Both the position numbers and the translations under genes were made by a program. A stretch of 46,426 bases of DNA from Spirochaetales bacterium. Lineage in GTDB: Bacteria; Spirochaetota; JAAYUW01. Of this stretch, positions 1,823-12,862 are shown in pieces (positions within the stretch are counted from its first letter, which is position 1; every line of letters starts with the position of its first letter). The notes beneath the pieces were generated by a model. That model ran no database searches and was not told the origin of the DNA. It saw only the letters and a program-made list of their open reading frames with translations. The stretch is taken from the NCBI GenBank assembly GCA_012797605.1, contig JAAZOT010000049.1:1-46426 (forward strand), given 5' to 3'.

Positions 1823-3325
1823 ATGGAATGGTGTACTGCTCAAAACCAGGTGATCCGTTCAAGAAATGAAATACCTTATAGAGAATTAAATGAATTTCAA
1901 AAAGAAATTTCAGATTATTTAGATAGAAATTTTAGATTGATAGCATTTGATGTTATTAACTTAAAAGAAAATGAAGATAAAAATATTAGAAATTTAATAG
2001 CTATTTTATCAAATGATGATCATTCAAACTTAAAAGTTGCTACAACAGAAATAGATATTAGAGAAAAAGTACCATCTCTTTCATTAAAATATCCTTCTTT
2101 TGCTATATTTGAAAGGATTTTAGCAGAAGAACATGGTATAGATTTCAAAGAGCATCCATATTTAAAACCTATGAGAGATATTAATTTTCCATTTATCTAT
2201 CCTTTATCTAAAGAACTTCATCAAGTTGGAGTGGGACCTGTTCATGCTGGTATAATTGAACCTGGTCATTTTAGATTCACATGCGAAGGAGAAAAAGTAT
2301 TATCTTTAGAAATTTCATTGGGTTATCAAAAAAGGGGAGTAAAACAGCTTTTATTAAAGTATCTTAAGGAAAAACAACCATTGACCAAAATATTTGCATT
2401 AGCAGAAAGTATTGTGGGTGATTCATCTGTTGCTTATGCTCATCTTTTTTCTATAATTATCGAATCCCTCGCTAATATTTTTCCAGATAAAAGAGATCTC
2501 GCTATAAGGGGTATCTTTTCTGAGATGGAAAGAATAGCAATGCATATTGCAGATTTATCTGCTATAGCAAATGATGTCGCTTATTTATCTACTTCTGCAT
2601 TTTTACAAGCATTAAGAACACAAATTATCAACAATCTTCTTGCTATTTGTGGCAGCAGATTTGGAAGAAATTTTTTTGGTATAGGTACAAATAGATTAGA
2701 TTTTGATGCTGATACCATAGAAAATATGAGAAAAAATCTCATAGATGTTCGCAATTCTTTTATAAATATTTGTGATGATTTTTTTTCAAATGCAATGATT
2801 ATCGCTAGGCTGGAAAATACTTCTATATTTACTAAAGAATATGCAAAAATTTTAGGTCAGGTTGGAATATCTGCAAAAGCTTCTGGGCTTCCGATAGATG
2901 CAAGATCAAATCATCCTTATGGTATTTATAGAAATTTCCCAATTTATCCTTACACATTAAAAAATGGAGATGTTTATTCTAGAGCTTTTATTAGATACAT
3001 TGAGGTTCAGCAATCTATTAAATTCATACTTGAGGTATTAGATTACTTCCCAGTAAAAGAGAAAAATGATTTTGATAAACCTATTTTAAAAATGCCAGAA
3101 CTTATGAAAGATTCTTTTTGTATTAATATTGTAGAAGGCTTTAGAGGAGAGATAGCATCATTTGTCACGACAGACTCTAAAAAAGATATCTTAGATATAA
3201 TAATAGTAGATCCATCTGTTCACAATTGGTATGGATTATCAGTTGCCATGAGAAATTCAGCAATTTCTGATTTTCCAGTGACAAATAAGAGTTTTAATCT
3301 CTCATATTGTGGGAATGATATGTAA
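1823..3325 (+). CDS. Energy-converting-hydrogenase-like large subunit (NuoC/NuoD-fused, HycE/HyfG family) lacking the NiFe-binding cysteines
   Basis: NuoC-like N-terminus and NuoD/HycE-like core (GPVHAGIIEPGHFRF, YQKRGVKQLL). CxxC motifs replaced by ESIVGDSSVAYAH and DPSVHNWYG. Confidence 0.85.
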   Translation: MEWCTAQNQVIRSRNEIPYRELNEFQKEISDYLDRNFRLIAFDVINLKENEDKNIRNLIAILSNDDHSNLKVATTEIDIREKVPSLSLKYPSFAIFERILAEEHGIDFKEHPYLKPMRDINFPFIYPLSKELHQVGVGPVHAGIIEPGHFRFTCEGEKVLSLEISLGYQKRGVKQLLLKYLKEKQPLTKIFALAESIVGDSSVAYAHLFSIIIESLANIFPDKRDLAIRGIFSEMERIAMHIADLSAIANDVAYLSTSAFLQALRTQIINNLLAICGSRFGRNFFGIGTNRLDFDADTIENMRKNLIDVRNSFINICDDFFSNAMIIARLENTSIFTKEYAKILGQVGISAKASGLPIDARSNHPYGIYRNFPIYPYTLKNGDVYSRAFIRYIEVQQSIKFILEVLDYFPVKEKNDFDKPILKMPELMKDSFCINIVEGFRGEIASFVTTDSKKDILDIIIVDPSVHNWYGLSVAMRNSAISDFPVTNKSFNLSYCGNDM

Positions 3326-3348
3326 GTAATTAAAAGGAAGGGATAAAA

Positions 3349-4119
3349 ATGTCTTCTTTATTTAAATCAAGGTTAAAGCATGGTTATCAAGCAATAAAAT
3401 CTGTTGAGCAGGCAAAGATAAATGAAAGATATAGGGGTTTTCCAAAAATACTTACAGATATTACATCAGAAGAATTGATGAGAAAACTAGTATCAATTTG
3501 TCCTACCGAAGCTATTAATAATAATCCACTTTCCATAGATCTTGGGAAGTGCATATTTTGTGGAGCATGTGAAGATTTCATAGAAGATAGTCCAATAAAA
3601 TTTACTAACAATCATAAAATCTTTGCCTTTAATAGAGAACAACTTATTGTCACTTCTGAAATAGATCAAGATTATTTTAAAAGACTTAAACCAAATATAG
3701 AGATAGAAAAACTATTTAAAAGATCCTTTAAAATAAGAAATGTAAGTGCTGGTGGCTGTAATGGGTGTGAGCTTGAACTTTCAGCATCCTTTAATGTAAA
3801 TTTTGATGCTGCAAGATTTGGTATAGATATTGTTGCCTCCCCAAGGCATGCAGATGCAATGGTTATAACTGGTCCTATAACTAAAAATATGCAAATTGCT
3901 ACATTAAGAACTTGGGAAGCAATGGCAGAGCCAAAGGTATGTATTTTATTTGGTAGTTGTGCAATAAGTGGAGGTATTTTTCATCAATCTAATGAACTTG
4001 CAAGAGAAATTCTAAGCAATTTTAACACATTATTATATATACCTGGATGCCCTGTTCATCCATTGACATTTATTGCAGCTGTAAAAAGATTGATTGGTTG
4101 GGGGGATGATGAACCTTAG
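3349..4119 (+). CDS. Hydrogenase-like small subunit (NuoB/HycG family) with N-terminal ferredoxin domain
   Basis: GGCNGCELE, GSCAISGG and PGCPVHP (proximal 4Fe4S ligands); N-terminal CPTEAI and CIFCGAC ferredoxin motifs. Confidence 0.88.
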   Translation: MSSLFKSRLKHGYQAIKSVEQAKINERYRGFPKILTDITSEELMRKLVSICPTEAINNNPLSIDLGKCIFCGACEDFIEDSPIKFTNNHKIFAFNREQLIVTSEIDQDYFKRLKPNIEIEKLFKRSFKIRNVSAGGCNGCELELSASFNVNFDAARFGIDIVASPRHADAMVITGPITKNMQIATLRTWEAMAEPKVCILFGSCAISGGIFHQSNELAREILSNFNTLLYIPGCPVHPLTFIAAVKRLIGWGDDEP

Positions 4120-4771
4120 TGTAGTAGAAGTCGCAGATTTACTTCAAATTCCAAAATCAAAAATACTAAAACTTGCTGAAACCTCAAAAATTCCTGCATA
4201 CAAGATAAATGGACAGTATTTATTCTCATTATCTGAACTAATTGAATGGTCCCTAATAAATCATAATTATATTTTCCCTCAAATGGTCGAACATGCATTA
4301 AATGAATTTAATATGAACTTCATTGTTTTATTTGAAAGAGGAAACCTTGTCTATGATATAGTAAATTCTATTAGCCCAAAGGAATATGATAATCTTATGA
4401 AAAATATTGCTATACCTCAAAGCACTAGGTTAGAAGATATAGAAAGAACATTAAAAGTTAAAAATAGTTTAACAATAGCTTGTTTGAAAACATCTTATGC
4501 TGCTTTACATCCAAGAAATCCATTATTTTGTCTTCATAAAGAGGAATCGATTTCAATCGTAAATTTTCAGAAATCTTTTGAAATTGATGATACAAGAAGA
4601 TCAAAAGTCAATACAGTATTTATAAATTTCAATGCTAATGCTGCAAGACATTTGCTTTGTCGACTTATAATATCTTATCTATGTCAAAGTATAGATATGG
4701 CAATATTATTAGAAAAAAAAGAAGAAAAAAATAAATTTATCGATCTTGCTAAACAAATTATAAATAAATGA
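4109..4771 (+). CDS. HTH (MerR/excisionase-type) plus PTS EIIA-like domain protein
   Basis: N-terminal LSVVEVADLLQIPKSKILKLAETSKIPAYKINGQYLFSLSELIEW; C-terminal EIIA-like region with ALHPRNP and a VNTVFINFNANAARHLLCRLIISYL pattern. ORF track starts at TTG 4094; ATG 4106/4109 is likelier. Confidence 0.65.
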   Translation: MNLSVVEVADLLQIPKSKILKLAETSKIPAYKINGQYLFSLSELIEWSLINHNYIFPQMVEHALNEFNMNFIVLFERGNLVYDIVNSISPKEYDNLMKNIAIPQSTRLEDIERTLKVKNSLTIACLKTSYAALHPRNPLFCLHKEESISIVNFQKSFEIDDTRRSKVNTVFINFNANAARHLLCRLIISYLCQSIDMAILLEKKEEKNKFIDLAKQIINK

Positions 4772-4805
4772 AAACCGAAGTTTAATATATTTGCAAGGAA
4801 TAAAG

Positions 4806-6866
4806 ATGATAATTTTTTATTTTAGTATAATTATCCTAATTTTTGGAACATTTGTATCTTTTTTATTCAAAAAAAATATAAAACTTATTATTTTTAGCGG
4901 ATTTCTCATATTGACTTCACTTATATTTTTGGTTATTTCCTCCATTAATTTTATAAACAATAATTTCCCCACATTAAACTTCTTAAATTTAAATCGGCTA
5001 ATTAGCCAAACAAATACTGGAAATTTAGACTACTTTTCAATATTTTCTAATTTAAATTTTGAAATAACCAGTATTGGTTTGTTTTTCATATTTGTTTTAT
5101 CGGTAGTATCTTTTTGTATAGCTCTATATATGCCTTATTATATAAGATCACATCTTATCAATCAACCTCAACTAAATTTTCATCTATTCAATTTCTCGCT
5201 ACTTCTATCTTCTATAGTTTTACTTCTTCTTACTTCAAATTTACTTATTTTTCTAATATTATGGGAAATTATGGGAATTTCTTCATTCTTCTGTATATTC
5301 TTCGATGGTCAGAAATCCAAAACTATAAATGCAGCTATTTTGTACATAGTTATGATGCATATAAGCTTCTTGTTAATATTAATTGGGACAATAATATGTT
5401 ATAATCATGTCGGCTCTTTTTCTTTTGAAAAAATCCAGCTTTATTTTCAACAAGCAAATAGTTTGGATTTAAATACTGACTTAAATAAAGTAAAACTATT
5501 GCTATTCTCTATTTTTACAGTCGGTTTTATTATAAAACTTGGTATATTCCCTTTTCATTTTTGGCTTCCTGAAGCCCACCCAGCTTCACCTTCTCATATT
5601 TCGTCTTTTATGTCCTCTATAGTTATAAAAACTGGGATTTATGGTCTATTTATAACATTAAATTTAATTGGTCTACCTACATTAACTTTTGCAAAAATTA
5701 TAATTTTTATAGGTCTTATTTCTGCGCTCATTGGAATAATTAATGCTGCTTCTCAGACACAGATAAAGAAGTTTTTAGCATATTCATCTGTAGAAAACGC
5801 TGGAATTTTATTGTTTTTATTTGGTTCTTCAATCTATGGCTTAATTAACAATAGTTTCTTTTTGTATTTATCTTCCCTTTTAGCAATTTTTATATATTTA
5901 TTGAATCATGCTTTTTCTAAATCCTCTGCATTTTTAAGTGCTGGTGTTATTATTAATGAAACCAAAAATGATGATTTAAACTTGCTCGGGGGGCTTGTTC
6001 ACTATTATAAAGACTTGACAGGAGCCAATTTAATTTCAAGCATTTCATTATCCGCACTTCCACCTTTTGGAAATTTCATAGGCGAACTTCTTATTCTAAT
6101 CGCTTACGCAAATTATATAACTAATTATGGCTTTTCTATCATACCTTTTTTTGTATTTTTATTTATAGGTTTGATAGGTAGTATAACTCTTCTAGGATTC
6201 ACCAAATATTTTGCTACTGGATTCTTAGGTAAATTTAGAGGAAAAAGCGACATAAAAAAAAGAAAACTTGATGTTTTTTTAACCTTTTCCTTATATATAC
6301 AATTGATATTTGCATTGATTTTTTCTTCCAGCTTTTTTTATAACTTCTATTTCAAAATAATTAAAGATCTTTCAGAAAAATTTTCTTTTTTAAGTGGAAA
6401 TTTTATTCTTGAAGCAGAAATGTTAGCTATTAATAAGATATTTAATTCATTTTATAAAATCACTATTCTTTTTCTGGCCCTTTTTATAGTGTTTTGGCTA
6501 TTATATAGTCTTATAAAATTAAAGAGAGAAAAAACATGGAGTTGTGGATTCATTTCAAAATCGAATGATAATTTTCAGTATACGGCCAATTCATTTGTTG
6601 AACCTTATATATCTGTTTTCAAACCTTTAGTAGGTATAAAAGTCAAGAAGAAAGAAAAAGAAATGGTTTTTATAGAAGATTCATATATTGAAACAGAACA
6701 TCAAGATATAGTTCAAAAAAATTTTATTAATCCTATAATTGAAAAAATTAATTATTTCTTTGAAAAATTATCATTTATTCAAAGTGGCAGGACACAAGAC
6801 TATATACTTTATGGTTTGATTTTTCTCATAATAATAATCATAATAACTCTTATAAGGTATATATAA
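4806..6866 (+). CDS. Proton-conducting antiporter-like membrane subunit (HyfB/NuoL-like)
   Basis: LWEIMGISSFF, KLGIFPFHFWLPEAHPASPSHISS; polytopic; C-terminal hydrophobic segment. ATG 4806 preceded by aaggaa; track start TTG 4791 less likely. Confidence 0.88.
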   Translation: MIIFYFSIIILIFGTFVSFLFKKNIKLIIFSGFLILTSLIFLVISSINFINNNFPTLNFLNLNRLISQTNTGNLDYFSIFSNLNFEITSIGLFFIFVLSVVSFCIALYMPYYIRSHLINQPQLNFHLFNFSLLLSSIVLLLLTSNLLIFLILWEIMGISSFFCIFFDGQKSKTINAAILYIVMMHISFLLILIGTIICYNHVGSFSFEKIQLYFQQANSLDLNTDLNKVKLLLFSIFTVGFIIKLGIFPFHFWLPEAHPASPSHISSFMSSIVIKTGIYGLFITLNLIGLPTLTFAKIIIFIGLISALIGIINAASQTQIKKFLAYSSVENAGILLFLFGSSIYGLINNSFFLYLSSLLAIFIYLLNHAFSKSSAFLSAGVIINETKNDDLNLLGGLVHYYKDLTGANLISSISLSALPPFGNFIGELLILIAYANYITNYGFSIIPFFVFLFIGLIGSITLLGFTKYFATGFLGKFRGKSDIKKRKLDVFLTFSLYIQLIFALIFSSSFFYNFYFKIIKDLSEKFSFLSGNFILEAEMLAINKIFNSFYKITILFLALFIVFWLLYSLIKLKREKTWSCGFISKSNDNFQYTANSFVEPYISVFKPLVGIKVKKKEKEMVFIEDSYIETEHQDIVQKNFINPIIEKINYFFEKLSFIQSGRTQDYILYGLIFLIIIIIITLIRYI

Positions 6867-6867
6867 A

Positions 6868-7800
6868 GTGGAGGAAAGGTTGAAAGAATTTATTTATTTT
6901 TTATTAAAAATAATTTTGATAATTTTTAGCCCTCCTTTAATGATAGGCATAATAAATAGAGTAAAAGCAATTTGGGCTGGTAAATATGGTCAAAGTATCT
7001 TACAACCGTTTTATGATATAATCAAACTTCTAAGAAAAAAAACAATTCGTAGTAATACATCCAGCTTTGTTACGACATTTGCACTACCTTTACAGTTCGT
7101 TTCCAATCTCATAGCTCTTTTATTAATCCCTTTTGGTAAAATAAAACCATTTATATCATTTGAAGGAGACTTTTTTTTCTTCATTGGGCTTTTAGGATTA
7201 TCTACATTCTGTCAGATAATTATGGCAATGGAATCAGCTGGTTCTTTTCAGGGAATGGGCGCAAGTAGAGAAATCAATTTTTCAATTTTTATAGAACCTG
7301 CTATTATTCTTCTATTTAGCTCAATGATATTTTATACTAAAAGTTATTCGATGAATAAAATGTTAATGGAATTTGGATTTTTATCTTTAGAAAAGATAAT
7401 GGTAGGAGTAATCCTTGGAATTTCATTCTTCTTATTGATATTGATTGAAGGTAAAAGAATTCCGATAGATGATCCTGCAACTCACTTAGAACTCACTATG
7501 ATACATGAAGCCATGATTCTAGATTTGAGTGGGAAAGATTTGGCTATAGCTATATATTCTGGTTATTTAAGAATATTTATCTTTTCTTTAATAACATCAA
7601 ATATATTTATTCCTACATTTATTTCAACCAATTTAAGCATATTGTTTTTGATTTTAATAATAATGTTTATATCAATAGTTGTTGGTGCTATTGAATCTTT
7701 ATTTCCAAGAGTCAGGATGAATCATATACCAGATTTTATGCTTCTAGTTTTATCTTTAAGTGTCATAATAATAGCCTTGATGTTTACAATGAATACTTAA
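6868..7800 (+). CDS. NuoH/HyfC-like membrane subunit
   Basis: IWAGKYGQSILQPFYDIIKLL, SAGSFQGMGASREINFSIFIEPA, LIEGKRIPIDDPATHLELTMIHEAM. Confidence 0.9.
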   Translation: MEERLKEFIYFLLKIILIIFSPPLMIGIINRVKAIWAGKYGQSILQPFYDIIKLLRKKTIRSNTSSFVTTFALPLQFVSNLIALLLIPFGKIKPFISFEGDFFFFIGLLGLSTFCQIIMAMESAGSFQGMGASREINFSIFIEPAIILLFSSMIFYTKSYSMNKMLMEFGFLSLEKIMVGVILGISFFLLILIEGKRIPIDDPATHLELTMIHEAMILDLSGKDLAIAIYSGYLRIFIFSLITSNIFIPTFISTNLSILFLILIIMFISIVVGAIESLFPRVRMNHIPDFMLLVLSLSVIIIALMFTMNT

Positions 7801-7812
7801 AAGGAATTCAAA

Positions 7813-8451
7813 ATGATAGAAGTTCTTTTAATAATTTTTAGCATCTCTCTTTTGGCTCTTTCATTAACCACAATGGTAGATTCATATGTAAGAAACTTGA
7901 TATACCAAGCAATAATTATATTTTTCATAACTTTATTTAATCATGAGGCTAAAAATCTAGGTACTGTAATTTTTATACTACTTGAAACCTTAATTATCAA
8001 AGGAATACTTGTCCCATACATTCTTTTTAGAAATATTAAAGAAAATGAAATAGTTAGAGAAGTTCAACCAAATACACCTCAGTACCTTTCGATTCTTTTA
8101 ATGTCCTTAATCTTGATCTTTGGTTTTGTCATTACATTCTGGTTTAATAAACATATCAATAATGTCAATTCAATGCAATTTGGTATATCTATATCGACGA
8201 TTCTTGCTGGTTTGTTTTTAATATTGGTAAGAAAACAACTTATAACTCATGTAATAGGATATATGGTGATTGAAAACGGAACTTTTTTACTCTCTTTGAC
8301 TGTTATCAAAAACCTTCCTTTACTTGTCGCTTTAGGAATTTCACTTGATATATTGATGGGAATCCTTCTAGCTGGAATTCTTATAAATCATATTAAAACA
8401 GAGTTTAATAAGGAAGAAGGGATAGATAGTCTTACTTCCTTGAAGGATTAA
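7813..8451 (+). CDS. HyfE-like membrane subunit
   Basis: Position in operon; VIGYMVIENGTFLLSLTV, typical of HyfE/NuoK-like proteins. Confidence 0.78.
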   Translation: MIEVLLIIFSISLLALSLTTMVDSYVRNLIYQAIIIFFITLFNHEAKNLGTVIFILLETLIIKGILVPYILFRNIKENEIVREVQPNTPQYLSILLMSLILIFGFVITFWFNKHINNVNSMQFGISISTILAGLFLILVRKQLITHVIGYMVIENGTFLLSLTVIKNLPLLVALGISLDILMGILLAGILINHIKTEFNKEEGIDSLTSLKD

Positions 8452-9971
8452 TGTCTTTACATGAATTATTGAAGTTTCAATTATGGATATGGGAGTTTAA
8501 AGTGTTTGAAACTTTTATTATTTTAAGTTTATTAATTTCCTTACTTATTCTTATTTTAAGAAATAATACTGTTAACTATATTCTTCTTTTATTTTATGGT
8601 GTATTTCAGTTAGTATTTACCTTTTTTGTAGTAAAATCATTTTTTAAAAATACTCAATCTTCCAGCTTTTTCTTGATTTTTGATTCAAAAATTTTAGATA
8701 GATTTATATATGCAGATAAATATACCATTTTCTTTATTATAATAACCTCAATACTATTTTTTATAAGTTCATTTTCTTCCATTAATAAAGTTCTCTTCAT
8801 GAAAGAGAAGAATTTTTCACTCTATTGTGCATTTTTGATTCTCTTTTTTGTATCATTATTTGGAGTTATTTCAGCTCAGAACTTGATAGTAATGTGGGTC
8901 TTTGTAGAAGCTACAACATTGACAAGTGGAGTCTTAATTTATCAAGATAAGACAAGGCATTCCCTTGAAGCAGCTTGGAAATATCTGTTTATATGTTCAA
9001 TAGGTATTGCTCTTTCATTTGTTGGTATTGTTTTTCTTTCACTTGCTTTTAATACTTCTTCTCTTTCCTTTAATGATCTTCTTCCCCTAAGTAAAAAAGC
9101 AAATCCTTTTTGGTTAGAACTTGGTTTTGGTTTTATATTAATAGGTTTTGGAACTAAAGCTGGACTTGCTCCTACTCATGCCTGGCTTCCAGATGCTCAT
9201 TCTGAGGCACCATCTCAAGTATCAGCTTTACTTTCTGGTGCATTATTAAATACAGCAATGCTTGGTATAATAAGAGTTTTAAATATATTACCAATTCAAG
9301 TTAAAAATATTTGTAGGATATATCTTTTAATCATGGGAATAATTTCATTATTAGTTTCATCTATTTATATGCTAAAAAGTGAAAATTATAAAAGACTTTT
9401 AGCTTATTCCTCAATTGAAAATTTAGGACTTATATCTATAGGATTATCTTTGGGAGGTATTGCTTCCTATTCATCCTACCTTCTTATAATATCTCATAGT
9501 TTAACTAAAGCTTCCTTATTCATAGTATCAGGAGTTATTAAAGATATTTATCATACTACAGAGACTAAAAGAGTTAATAATCTATTAAAATTTATTCCTT
9601 TTGCAGCCAGTACATTAGCTTTAGGATTCTTAAGTATCATGGGTTTCCCAATCTTTCTTTCTTTTTTTTCCGAGATTAAACTATTTTACTTTCTAATAAC
9701 AAATCAAAAATGGTTATTGCTTATAACTGTTTTATTTTTAATATTGGTAATACTATTTGCATTATCCAAAAATATATTTAATATGATATTTGCAGCGGAA
9801 GGGAAATATAAGGCTTCAGAATTGATAAGGTTAAAGGTGAAAAAGTTAAACACTGTTAATAATATTCAAATCTTTGGAGCATTTTTTCTTATAGCTTTAG
9901 CTTTATTATTAGGTATCTATTTCCCTAGTCAGTTTAAGGAATTCATATTGTCTCTTGTTTCCTCTATGTAA
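8451..9971 (+). CDS. Proton-conducting antiporter-like membrane subunit (HyfF/NuoN-like)
   Basis: MWVFVEATTLTSGVLI, GFGTKAGLAPTHAWLPDAHSEAPSQVSALLSG; start overlaps the preceding stop. Confidence 0.88.
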   Translation: MSLHELLKFQLWIWEFKVFETFIILSLLISLLILILRNNTVNYILLLFYGVFQLVFTFFVVKSFFKNTQSSSFFLIFDSKILDRFIYADKYTIFFIIITSILFFISSFSSINKVLFMKEKNFSLYCAFLILFFVSLFGVISAQNLIVMWVFVEATTLTSGVLIYQDKTRHSLEAAWKYLFICSIGIALSFVGIVFLSLAFNTSSLSFNDLLPLSKKANPFWLELGFGFILIGFGTKAGLAPTHAWLPDAHSEAPSQVSALLSGALLNTAMLGIIRVLNILPIQVKNICRIYLLIMGIISLLVSSIYMLKSENYKRLLAYSSIENLGLISIGLSLGGIASYSSYLLIISHSLTKASLFIVSGVIKDIYHTTETKRVNNLLKFIPFAASTLALGFLSIMGFPIFLSFFSEIKLFYFLITNQKWLLLITVLFLILVILFALSKNIFNMIFAAEGKYKASELIRLKVKKLNTVNNIQIFGAFFLIALALLLGIYFPSQFKEFILSLVSSM

Positions 9972-10006: not shown

Positions 10007-10726
10007 ATGGGTAAAAAGAAGAATAAAAAGTTGGAAAAAGTGAGAAACTTGAAAAGCTTTTCAACAGAAAAACCAAAAGATAAAAAAGATGAAAAAAACG
10101 AATATGAAAAGAAAGATAGTTTGCTTTTGTTTTTAAGAGACGCTGTAATAATCGTTGTTATTTTTATTTTATTTATTCAACCTCTTATTATATCTAGTTA
10201 TACTATACCTACAGCATCGATGGATCCAACAATACCTCCTGGTACAAGACTCATAGGCTTACCCATAGTCTATGGTGGATTTTTATTTTGGACAAAGATA
10301 AAAATGCCATCTCTTAAAAAAATTAATAGATTTGATATTGTAATTTTCAAGCATCCAGATTCCAAAATAAAAACTCCTTATGTTAAAAGGGTTATAGGAC
10401 TTCCAGGGGATACAGTTTATGTAGATGGGAAAAATGTCTATATAAATGGACAAAAGATATTTGAGCCATACACGCAGTATATTTTAGATGCCCAATATTC
10501 AGCACATCCTGAAGTAAAAAGGCAGACTTTTGGACCTGTGAAAGTACCTGAAGGTAATCTTTTTGTTATGGGAGACAACAGAGATAACTCTGAAGATTCA
10601 AGATATTGGGGATTTTTACCTATAAAAAATGTCTTTGCTATGCCTCTTATAGTGACTTTCTCAAAGGATCCAAATAGTGGTAAGATAAGATGGAACCAAT
10701 TTGGTAGAATATTGTTTAATAAATAA
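10007..10726 (+). CDS. lepB: Signal peptidase I
   Basis: SYTIPTASMDPTIPPG (catalytic Ser), KTPYVKRVIGLPGD (catalytic Lys), VMGDNRDNSEDSRYWGFLP. Confidence 0.95.
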   Translation: MGKKKNKKLEKVRNLKSFSTEKPKDKKDEKNEYEKKDSLLLFLRDAVIIVVIFILFIQPLIISSYTIPTASMDPTIPPGTRLIGLPIVYGGFLFWTKIKMPSLKKINRFDIVIFKHPDSKIKTPYVKRVIGLPGDTVYVDGKNVYINGQKIFEPYTQYILDAQYSAHPEVKRQTFGPVKVPEGNLFVMGDNRDNSEDSRYWGFLPIKNVFAMPLIVTFSKDPNSGKIRWNQFGRILFNK

Positions 10727-10834
10727 TAATTATTAATTGATTAACATAGTATAAAATTTGTTAAGAGTTGTAAAATAAAGATTGCATATTTATTATATTA
10801 TGATATTTGCTATTCCAGATTAGGGAGAATTTAT

Positions 10835-11674
10835 ATGGATAAATTACCTGATTCTATAAAAAAGATATTTATAGATAAGAATCAAGATAAATCTTTACCA
10901 GATAATCTTTTTGCTGTTTGTCCTGGATGTCAAGAAATTGTATATAGACCAAAACTCGAACAAAATCTTGGGGTATGTCCTTTGTGCTCATATCATTTTA
11001 GAATATCTGTGGATGAATGGATAAATTTTCTTGCGGATGCTGATTCTTTTACTTCATTATTCGATGAAATTGTTTCAGTAGATCCCTTGAACTTCCCTGG
11101 TTATAAGGAGAAATTAGAAGAACTTTATAAAAAAGGGATAAATGAAGGGGTAAAGACTGGGTATGTAAAACTAGATGGTATAAAGACTTTAATAGGTATA
11201 ATGGATGCAGATTTTATAATGGGTTCAATGGGTTCAGTAGTCGGTGAAAGAATCACTAGACTTTTTGAATATGGAATGAATGAAAATTTACCAGTAATAA
11301 TAATATGTCGTTCTGGTGGTGCTAGGATGCAAGAAGGCGTTGTTTCACTATTTCAGATGGCAAAAACCTCTGCTGCAGCTAAGAAATTCTCTGACACAGG
11401 CAATCTTTATATTTCTATTTTGACAGATCCAACGACAGGAGGCGTTTCTGCTTCTTTCGCCTTTTTAGGGGATATAATAATTGCAGAACCAGGTGCATTG
11501 ATTGGATTTGCTGGACAAAGAGTTATAGAACAAACTATAAAACAAAAATTACCTGAAGGTTTCCAAAGGGCTGAATTTTTAGAAAAAAAGGGTTTTATAG
11601 ATATAGTTTGTGATAGAAGAAAATTACGAGAAACCCTTGTAAAAATTCTAGAAATTCATAGATACCGAAGATAA
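10835..11674 (+). CDS. accD: Acetyl-CoA carboxylase carboxyltransferase subunit beta
   Basis: Zinc ribbon CPGCQEIVYRPKLEQNLGVCPLC; SGGARMQEGVVSLFQMAKTSAA; adjacent to accA. Confidence 0.95.
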   Translation: MDKLPDSIKKIFIDKNQDKSLPDNLFAVCPGCQEIVYRPKLEQNLGVCPLCSYHFRISVDEWINFLADADSFTSLFDEIVSVDPLNFPGYKEKLEELYKKGINEGVKTGYVKLDGIKTLIGIMDADFIMGSMGSVVGERITRLFEYGMNENLPVIIICRSGGARMQEGVVSLFQMAKTSAAAKKFSDTGNLYISILTDPTTGGVSASFAFLGDIIIAEPGALIGFAGQRVIEQTIKQKLPEGFQRAEFLEKKGFIDIVCDRRKLRETLVKILEIHRYRR

Positions 11675-11704
11675 AATTAAAATGATATAGGTAGTTGAAT
11701 GCTA

Positions 11705-11790
11705 AAAAGTATTAAAAGCAAAGTATTTAAAAGATAAAAAAGTAATAAAAGTTAAATAAAAGTAATAAATAGATAGATAAAAGTAATAAA
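11705..11790 (+). repeat. Short iteron-like direct repeats (AAAAGTAATAAA x3 plus degenerate copies)
   Basis: Exact 12-mers at 11738-11749, 11758-11769 and 11779-11790; near-copies near 11705 and 11720. Confidence 0.6.
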
Positions 11791-11860
11791 ACTTAAATAA
11801 TGAAAAGATAAAATAAGAATGTAGTATCTGGAAATCCTAAATAAATATTAGGAGAATATT

Positions 11861-12862
11861 GTGAAAAAAGAAAAAATATTAAAACAAATCGATAAACTTA
11901 AATCTATTGCCATTTCTGAAGGAATCGATCTATCATCTGAGATTAATCGATTGAGAGGAATGCTTGAACTTGAAAGTGATGAATATAAAAAGGAAAAAGA
12001 GATTGAGGAAGTTTTTTCAATTGTTCAAAATTCCAGAAAAATTGAAAGACCTAAACCTCAGGATTTTATAAAATCTTTGATAAAGGATTTTATAGAACTC
12101 AAAGGAGATAGAAGATTTGCAAATGATGATGCAATCATAGGCGGTATTGGTTATTTTGATAAATATCCTGTCACAGCAGTTGGAATACAAAAAGGACATA
12201 CTTTGAATGAGAATATTACTTTCAACTTTGGTTCACCACATCCAGAAGGATATAGAAAAGCACTTAGATTAGCTTTTCAAGCAGAGAAATTTTCGAGACC
12301 AATTTTATTTTTTGTAGATACTCCAGGAGCTTATCCAGGAATAGATTCGGAAGAAAGAGGGATGGCTCAAGCTATTGCGGAAAATCTTTACTATTTATCT
12401 GATTTAAAAACACCGATAATCTCTATTATTACTGGTGAAGGGGGCTCTGGTGGAGCACTTGCTTTAGGTGTCTCTGATATTTTGATAATGATGCAGAATG
12501 CAATTCTTTCAGTTATCTCTCCTGAAGGTTGTGCTTCAATAATATTTAAAGACTCATCAAAAGCAGCAGCTGCGGCTGTTTCACTAAAGTTAACTTCTTT
12601 TGATTTGCTTTCATTAGGAATTGTGGATAAGGTGATCGATGAGGGACCTGGCCTCGATGTTGATCCTCAAATAGGTTATAGGAATTTAACTGAACAAATT
12701 TCTACTTCTCTTGCATATTTCACATCATTAAATAGTAAAGAATTGATTGAACATAGGTATCAAAAATTAAGAAAGATAGGCTTTTATAAAGATACAACTG
12801 GTTTTGTAAAAAAAGGATTAAATAAATCTAAAAATTTTATCTATGAGTTATTTAAATTCTAA
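11861..12862 (+). CDS. accA: Acetyl-CoA carboxylase carboxyltransferase subunit alpha
   Basis: ELKGDRRFANDDAIIGGIG, FVDTPGAYPGIDSEERGMAQAIAENL, GEGGSGGALALGVSD, SPEGCASIIFKD. Confidence 0.96.
   Translation: MKKEKILKQIDKLKSIAISEGIDLSSEINRLRGMLELESDEYKKEKEIEEVFSIVQNSRKIERPKPQDFIKSLIKDFIELKGDRRFANDDAIIGGIGYFDKYPVTAVGIQKGHTLNENITFNFGSPHPEGYRKALRLAFQAEKFSRPILFFVDTPGAYPGIDSEERGMAQAIAENLYYLSDLKTPIISIITGEGGSGGALALGVSDILIMMQNAILSVISPEGCASIIFKDSSKAAAAAVSLKLTSFDLLSLGIVDKVIDEGPGLDVDPQIGYRNLTEQISTSLAYFTSLNSKELIEHRYQKLRKIGFYKDTTGFVKKGLNKSKNFIYELFKF

Follow-up and report, generated by a model that had tools for sequence, protein, structure and literature searches.

Complexes related to the energy-converting hydrogenases (Ehr, energy-converting-hydrogenase-related) have been described in Geobacter (GSU0739-45), Margulisbacteria, Saganbacteria, Melainabacteria and comammox Nitrospira, and the family is widespread, with more than 570 relatives over many phyla among the matches listed. 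We know of no explanation of the Ehr substrate since the family was first described. An operon of this kind occupies positions 1823-9971 of contig JAAZOT010000049.1, a stretch of 46,426 nucleotides from a Spirochaetales bacterium that is called the window hereafter. Its seven open reading frames, all on the + strand, are intact and free of frameshifts, and they encode a genuine and complete Ehr complex of a Spirochaetota genome. This membership is firm: as in the described complexes, the subunits are the same, the NiFe ligands are missing and the large subunit falls in the same clade. A first-pass annotation, made from the sequence alone, had proposed a complete Ehr-type membrane complex, and gene content, reading frames, alignment, tree and structural model agree with it. 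The compact gene set without a HyfD-like antiporter, which it had also stressed, was read correctly as to the missing subunit, but such a set is typical of Ehr and not special to this locus.

The locus belongs to a known kind, and its interest lies in results obtained for the family. The comparison of about 90 relatives provides first concrete leads to the role of Ehr, namely natural variants that lack the proximal cluster, a GD(T/S)/SYxG pocket that is fixed and without metal, a conserved EIIA protein that may act as a switch, and neighbouring transporters of the bicarbonate type. In a search largely outside subscription journals, no published report was located of the proximal-cluster loss, of a widespread helix-turn-helix (HTH)-EIIA protein with two invariant histidines or of the transporter neighbours. 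The window copy has features of its own within the family. The order of the described operons is HTH-B-C-E-F-L-S, whereas here it is L-S-HTH/EIIA-B-C-E-F, an arrangement found otherwise only in the sister genome; unlike the known Ehr, it has a single ferredoxin-domain cluster, a very divergent EIIA domain and a long stem branch. In what follows G000 is the window genome (2.07 Mb, 90% complete), G001 the sister genome (95% complete) and other G numbers are genomes of the same phylum, while L numbers denote Ehr or comparison loci.

The former NiFe site of the large subunit

EhrL, the large subunit, was compared in one alignment with four NuoD proteins, eight group 4 hydrogenases from the same phylum and HycE of E. 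coli; conservation was counted over 98 EhrL. The motif ESIVGDSSVAY falls exactly on the RxCGxC position of group 4 hydrogenases (RVCGICGFAH), so the L1 stretch that had been set opposite E/R-x-x-CGxC-S-x-x-H was placed properly and has no ligands. The second motif was not: DPSVHNWYG had been put at the DPCxxC position, whereas DPSVHNW lies opposite AATYANW in HycE of E. coli, a stretch also found in true hydrogenases. The true DPCxxC position corresponds to the last ten residues of EhrL, with NLSYCGND versus DPCYSCTDR of hydrogenases. The statement that all four ligands are absent holds in spite of the misplaced motif. The first cysteine is replaced by V (A in 74 of the 98 EhrL), the second by S (T or S in 95/98), the third by S in 98/98, followed by Y in 98/98, and the fourth by G in 98/98. 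Cys496, close to the fourth position, was considered as a displaced ligand; it is not one, because it lies one residue off and is conserved in only 76/98. Hence, as judged from the alignment, the four NiFe ligands are lost and not displaced, and neither the RxCGxC nor the DPCxxC ligands of group 4 [NiFe] hydrogenases are found in EhrL.

The replacing residues form a constellation, G-D-(T/S) and S-Y-x-G, in which D (D200, 2420-2422), S, Y and the C-terminal G are each present in 98/98 EhrL. Since these residues are fixed, the NiFe site was not merely lost; another constellation took its place. The pocket contains no conserved Cys. Nearly all EhrL checked end in NKSF-x-x-SY-x-G-x-D-L/M. Hydrogenases carry a further C-terminal tail, which is cleaved in maturation; EhrL has no extension past the DPCxxC position of the kind removed by the endopeptidase of group 4 hydrogenases.

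The window complex resembles the group 4 [NiFe] hydrogenases (HycE of the E. coli formate hydrogenlyase, MBH of Pyrococcus) in the fold of the large subunit, the positions of its motifs, the hydrogenase-type CxxC of the small subunit and the HyfB/C/E/F-like membrane arm; it differs from them in having no NiFe ligands, no C-terminal extension and no HypD in its genome. With complex I (NuoB/CD/H/K/L/N) it shares the fold, the uncleaved C-terminus and the logic of the membrane arm, but the operon has no NADH module, the genome has no UbiA, and EhrL presents the hydrogenase-type EPGHF and not HPxxHG, the quinone-site loop of NuoD, in whose place stands GPVHAGIIEPGHFRF. The EhrL model (predicted local distance difference test, pLDDT, 88.7; lowest confidence at residues 140-147, the GPVHAGII loop, and 497-500) had HycE (7z0s_E) as its best PDB match, with a template modelling (TM) score of 0.86, followed by NuoCD at 0.8.

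In the tree the window EhrL is monophyletic with 95 other EhrL (SH-aLRT, an approximate likelihood ratio test of branch support, 100). The tree that the first-pass annotation had called for thus gives Ehr a clade apart from NiFe and Nuo, the latter forming a separate clade; Ehr may have branched inside or beside the group 4 NiFe lineages. The window and G001 EhrL share the long stem branch. Between these two genomes the operon genes have 58-80% amino-acid identity and ratios of nonsynonymous to synonymous substitution (dN/dS) of at most 0.17, about 0.14 for EhrL, values obtained with dS near saturation; 64 columns are invariant among 38 EhrL from many phyla. By these sequence measures the operon is under purifying selection and functional.

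Electron path in the small subunit

All four cysteines of the proximal cluster (CxxC...C...C) are present in the window EhrS, as had been noted (Table 1). It had been overlooked that the ferredoxin domain has cysteines for only one cluster, most relatives having two; the four ligands of the second are present in 61-67 of 89 relatives and absent here. From the ligand pattern of NuoI, we take the remaining cluster to be of the N6b type, next to N2, and the missing one to be of the N6a type.

Cluster loss was counted over 87 EhrS with a paired EhrL, the changes being placed on the EhrL tree. Three or four of the proximal cysteines are replaced in 19 of these proteins, through about five changes. 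The substitutes are D-C-D-N in a Bacteroidota clade and in L037, N-x-E-D in three genera of one spirochaete family (L046, L047, L049), N-E-E-W in the planctomycete L101, D-D-H-S in L130, and S-E-E-W and D-V-C-W in the Verrucomicrobia L080 and L104. The surrounding sequence is intact (AGGDGSCELE, GTDAISGG, PGNPIHP and similar), and the cluster-less loci keep the EhrL pocket and, single gaps apart, E153, K236 and K353 of EhrF and K249, H256 and K377 of EhrB. Since the proximal ligands are lost while the pocket persists, these Ehr cannot reduce at the old site through that cluster. On the evidence of the ligands, then, several lineages have kept the complex although the usual cluster can no longer bring electrons to the old site. 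The reverse case occurs in the Gemmatimonadota L088 and L091, where the proximal cysteines are kept and those of the ferredoxin domain are gone.

Spirochaete G021 bears two Ehr operons, a normal one (L036) and a second copy of the cluster-less Bacteroidota type (L037), which suggests lateral transfer.

Membrane arm

Residues K249, H256, H373 and K377 of EhrB and E153, K236 and K353 of EhrF are conserved in the family. The WE-type Glu and Lys motifs that had been assigned to the antiporter-like subunits are present (LWEIMG; in B and F, the Lys motifs), their charged residues being near-invariant in Ehr, and in the window operon B, C and F have all kept the charged residues of the ion path. Conservation of these residues would be compatible with ion pumping by Ehr.

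The HTH-EIIA protein

A gene of the HTH-EIIA family, usually the first of the operon, is found in 37 of the 65 Ehr operons in which it is visible or the upstream sequence is sufficient to judge. Relatives match HTH_17 and PTS_EIIA_2 (PF00359) with E values of 1e-25 to 1e-29 (1.5e-25 and 8.8e-29 as examples), and W47, H134 and H181 are invariant in the 30 aligned proteins, the window copy and 29 relatives. The window model (pLDDT 88.1) has EIIA-Ntr structures among its best PDB matches, with a moderate fold match to PtsN (3urr_B; TM 0.74 by target length). The cytoplasmic domains of SLC4 anion/bicarbonate exchangers rank highest, probably because the fold is shared. Hence the window copy has the fold and the two invariant His of PtsN/EIIA-Ntr and HTH-EIIA proteins, but it has lost the GIGxGIAIP motif and lies below Pfam detection. 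The earlier HTH-EIIA assignment is accordingly backed by fold and family alignment, while PF00359 does not score this copy.

As to the other parts of the phosphotransferase system (PTS), EI is present in G000 and HPr in G001-G003. The HTH-EIIA protein would be a PTS-linked switch acting on Ehr expression or activity. Plasmids bearing distant Ehr have no homologue of it. In a different protein of G000 (L135:1498-3396) an EIIA domain is joined to a part that resembles cation/proton antiporters.

Donors, acceptors and maturases

The maturase HypD, for which the first-pass annotation had suggested looking, is absent from the window genome and from G001. In the phylum HypD occurs in 4 of 17 Ehr-bearing genomes versus 13 of 44 others (p 0.76), and since the frequencies are alike, Ehr neither needs nor excludes it. 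UbiA, a quinone marker, is absent from G000-G003 and from 8/17 Ehr-bearing genomes, and the molybdopterin oxidoreductase PF00384 from G000, G001 and 11/17; the three are jointly absent in 7/17. G000 encodes two FeFe hydrogenases, and three of its proteins contain Complex1_51K, a domain that occurs in NuoF and RnfC.

Because HypD, UbiA and PF00384 are all absent from G000, readings of the complex as a hydrogenase, as a quinone reductase or as a partner of formate dehydrogenase fail here, and coupling to H2, quinone or formate dehydrogenase is unlikely in this organism. Ferredoxin or NAD(P)H would be the simplest inputs, a ferredoxin-type donor being the likeliest.

Inorganic-carbon transporters beside Ehr operons

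SulP is the most recurrent family flanking Ehr operons. SulP, SbtA or DabA(B) lies at most 1 kb from the operon in 10 of 94 Ehr loci (149 kb examined), against 2 genes of the same families in 653 kb at 1-10 kb, a near/far ratio of 22 (p ~2e-6) for a 1 kb limit that was chosen after the data were seen. In the spirochaete family of L046, L047 and L049 the same place after EhrS holds SulP in two genera and SbtA in the third. In planctomycete L098 (3782-12371) DabA (PF10070, E 2e-241) comes directly after EhrS, and next to it are two DabB-like proteins and a SulP that bears a P-II domain. SulP alone is no proof of bicarbonate, while SbtA and DabA point to it. The DAB and other inorganic-carbon systems (DabAB, SbtA, SulP/BicA) are also akin to Ehr in that DabB is related to the antiporter subunits; they differ in that the Ehr operon itself has no DabA homologue.

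No DabA, SbtA or SulP occurs in the 46 kb window, and SulP is absent from G000, where SbtA and DabA were not searched genome-wide. Cluster loss and transporter neighbours showed no significant association (p 0.25). A search of the loci with Can, the E. coli carbonic anhydrase, gave no homologue. Distant plasmid Ehr (~30% identity; Variovorax, Bradyrhizobium, Methylocalor, Allomeiothermus) have no annotated inorganic-carbon neighbour, and the unannotated plasmid Ehr records of Rhizobium and Azospirillum gave no match to SulP or SbtA queries. At L060:12296-14522 an EIIA-CBS protein and a CitMHS/ArsB-type transporter come after EhrS, and a SulP gene lies divergently upstream of the operon.

Proposed mechanism and alternatives

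The best explanation, which we consider to have an even chance of being correct, is a functional, redox-coupled Ehr complex. Low-potential electrons, most simply those of reduced ferredoxin from metabolism of the FeFe-hydrogenase/Rnf type, would enter EhrS at its ferredoxin domain, reach the proximal cluster and, from there, act in the remodelled pocket of EhrL. The acceptor would be neither H+, the NiFe site being absent, nor a home-made quinone, UbiA being absent. Electron flow would drive, or gate, the movement of H+ or Na+ through C-E-F-B, and the HTH-EIIA protein would tie expression or activity to the phosphorylation state of the PTS, that is, to phosphoenolpyruvate/pyruvate. Several points weigh against this scheme. 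Ferredoxin is only one possible donor; the EIIA identity of the window copy is suggested by family alignment and modelled fold without a direct Pfam match; and HPr was not found in G000 itself. Moreover, related Ehr lack the proximal cluster or, in the two Gemmatimonadota loci, the ferredoxin-domain clusters, so that Ehr may have a main role other than redox coupling. The pump proposed in the first-pass annotation, with an electron carrier that is not H2, is plausible here, where ferredoxin-type and proximal clusters are kept, but too simple for a family in which 19/87 have lost the proximal one.

These same losses, with pocket and ion path kept, favour a vectorial complex I-like module in which H+/Na+ movement supports the handling of HCO3-/CO2 or other anions and such FeS clusters as remain are redox sensors or vestiges. 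The excess of transporters within 1 kb, 22 times the 1-10 kb rate, and the L098 locus, with Ehr, DabA, DabB-like genes and P-II-domain SulP in a row, speak for it too. However, such a neighbour is missing at 84/94 loci, sulfate and other anions are SulP substrates too, G000 has no SulP, most Ehr, that of the window included, keep their cluster ligands, cluster loss is not associated with the transporters, and the distance limit was post hoc. On balance such a module is unlikely, although of the alternatives it survives best. Somewhat more doubtful still is a wider proposal, by which Ehr, as a branch of the complex I superfamily, would do its essential work without passing electrons to the old site. 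That site having become a conserved pocket free of metal, and several lineages having given up the iron-sulfur cluster beside it, the membrane arm would serve ion-coupled inorganic-carbon or anion handling, controlled by PTS EIIA in some lineages. If the carbon/anion link is true, another energy-coupled system would be added to the complex I-like machines; if it is false, the cluster-less Ehr would still be a natural experiment on the need of complex I-like ion movement for electrons.

Mbx/Mbs of Pyrococcus is derived from hydrogenases and, as Ehr, no longer makes H2, a likeness of systems and not of aligned ligand patterns. A pump of that type, driven by ferredoxin or NAD(P)H and passing electrons to a small acceptor in solution, for instance sulfane sulfur, would have the architecture seen in Ehr, where the chain of electron carriers leads up to the pocket in most members. 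It is nevertheless improbable, as the EhrL pocket has no conserved Cys and no acceptor enzyme or sulfur gene recurs beside Ehr. A quinone reductase, equivalent to complex I without its NADH module, would suit the TM score of 0.8 to NuoCD and the C-terminus left uncleaved as in NuoD; the EPGHF motif in place of HPxxHG and the distribution of UbiA, missing in G000-G003 and in 8/17 Ehr-bearing genomes, make it very unlikely. Feeding of Ehr by formate dehydrogenase has been put forward for Margulisbacteria and Saganbacteria (PMC6349859) and has been suggested in Geobacter as well (PMC7894505), with published co-occurrence and formate-linked abundance in its favour; with PF00384 missing from G000, G001 and 11/17 Ehr-bearing genomes it has hardly any probability here, the loophole being a gene in the missing 5-10% of both genomes. 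Lastly, the view implied for Geobacter KN400 Ehr (PMC13194489), that of a hydrogenase which is inactive and decaying, agrees with the lost NiFe ligands but can be dismissed with near certainty, because EhrL is conserved across phyla and dN/dS does not exceed 0.17, and the operons are intact across phyla.

Gene map and surroundings

Profile matches in Pfam and NCBIfam were to the 49 kDa/30 kDa and 20 kDa (NuoB-like) subunits, HTH_17, two Proton_antipo_M, NADHdh and a HyfE-like protein, subunits B, E and F being named as relatives of hydrogenase-4 B, E and F. EhrL matched hydrogenases and complex I at E values down to 6e-34, and family models at 3e-42.

Table 1. Features of the window operon and, where an L number is given, of related loci
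Feature	Position	Strand	Basis or remark
EhrL, large subunit, 500 aa; NuoC-like N-terminal domain fused to NuoD/group 4 hydrogenase-like domain	1823..3325	+	reading frame, profile matches, tree, model
L1 motif ESIVGDSSVAY in place of E/D-R-x-C-G-x-C-x-x-x-H	2405..2437	+	alignment with HycE, group 4 enzymes, NuoD
C-terminal NKSFNLSYCGNDM in place of S-x-D-P-C-Y-S-C-T-D-R; protein stops here	3284..3322	+	alignment; S, Y, G invariant 98/98
EhrS, 256 aa; ferredoxin-like domain fused to NuoB-like small subunit	3349..4119	+	reading frame, profile matches
C51, C68, C71, C74 of EhrS, single remaining [4Fe-4S] cluster of ferredoxin domain	3499..3570	+	ligand alignment
C137, C140, C204, C234 of EhrS, proximal [4Fe-4S] ligands	3757..4050	+	ligand alignment
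HTH (excisionase/MerR-type) and divergent PTS EIIA-like domain; start 4106 or 4109, overlaps EhrS end	4109..4771	+	PF12728 E 6e-10, family alignment, model
H134, position of the phosphorylated His of EIIA; invariant with H181 (4649-4651)	4508..4510	+	alignment of 30
EhrB, HyfB/NuoL-like antiporter subunit; ATG at 4806 possible	4791..6866	+	reading frame, profile matches, conserved residues
EhrC, HyfC/NuoH-like subunit	6868..7800	+	reading frame, profile matches, conserved residues
EhrE, HyfE-like subunit (NuoK-like part)	7813..8451	+	reading frame, profile matches
EhrF, HyfF/NuoN-like antiporter subunit	8451..9971	+	reading frame, profile matches, conserved residues
EhrS without proximal Cys	L037, L046, L047, L049, L063, L064, L080, L081, L093-L095, L100, L101, L104, L115, L119, L122, L127, L130		pocket and ion path kept
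SbtA (PF05982, E 4e-121)	L047:9087-10067		directly after EhrS
SulP	L046:9349-10962		directly after EhrS
SulP	L049:6410-8005		directly after EhrS

Promoter-like and terminator-like matches within the operon did not exceed the level of shuffled sequence, and an Rfam search gave no match inside it. A promoter-like site, TTGACA-16-TAAAAT, lies upstream of EhrL at 1680-1707, such sites being no commoner than in shuffles. Downstream of the operon lie lepB, accD and accA (10007-12862), as they do in G001. Acetyl-CoA carboxylase, the accD/accA product, uses bicarbonate, and its adjacency to the Ehr operon may be due to chance. A 5S rRNA gene (RF00001) is located at 19-135 of the window.

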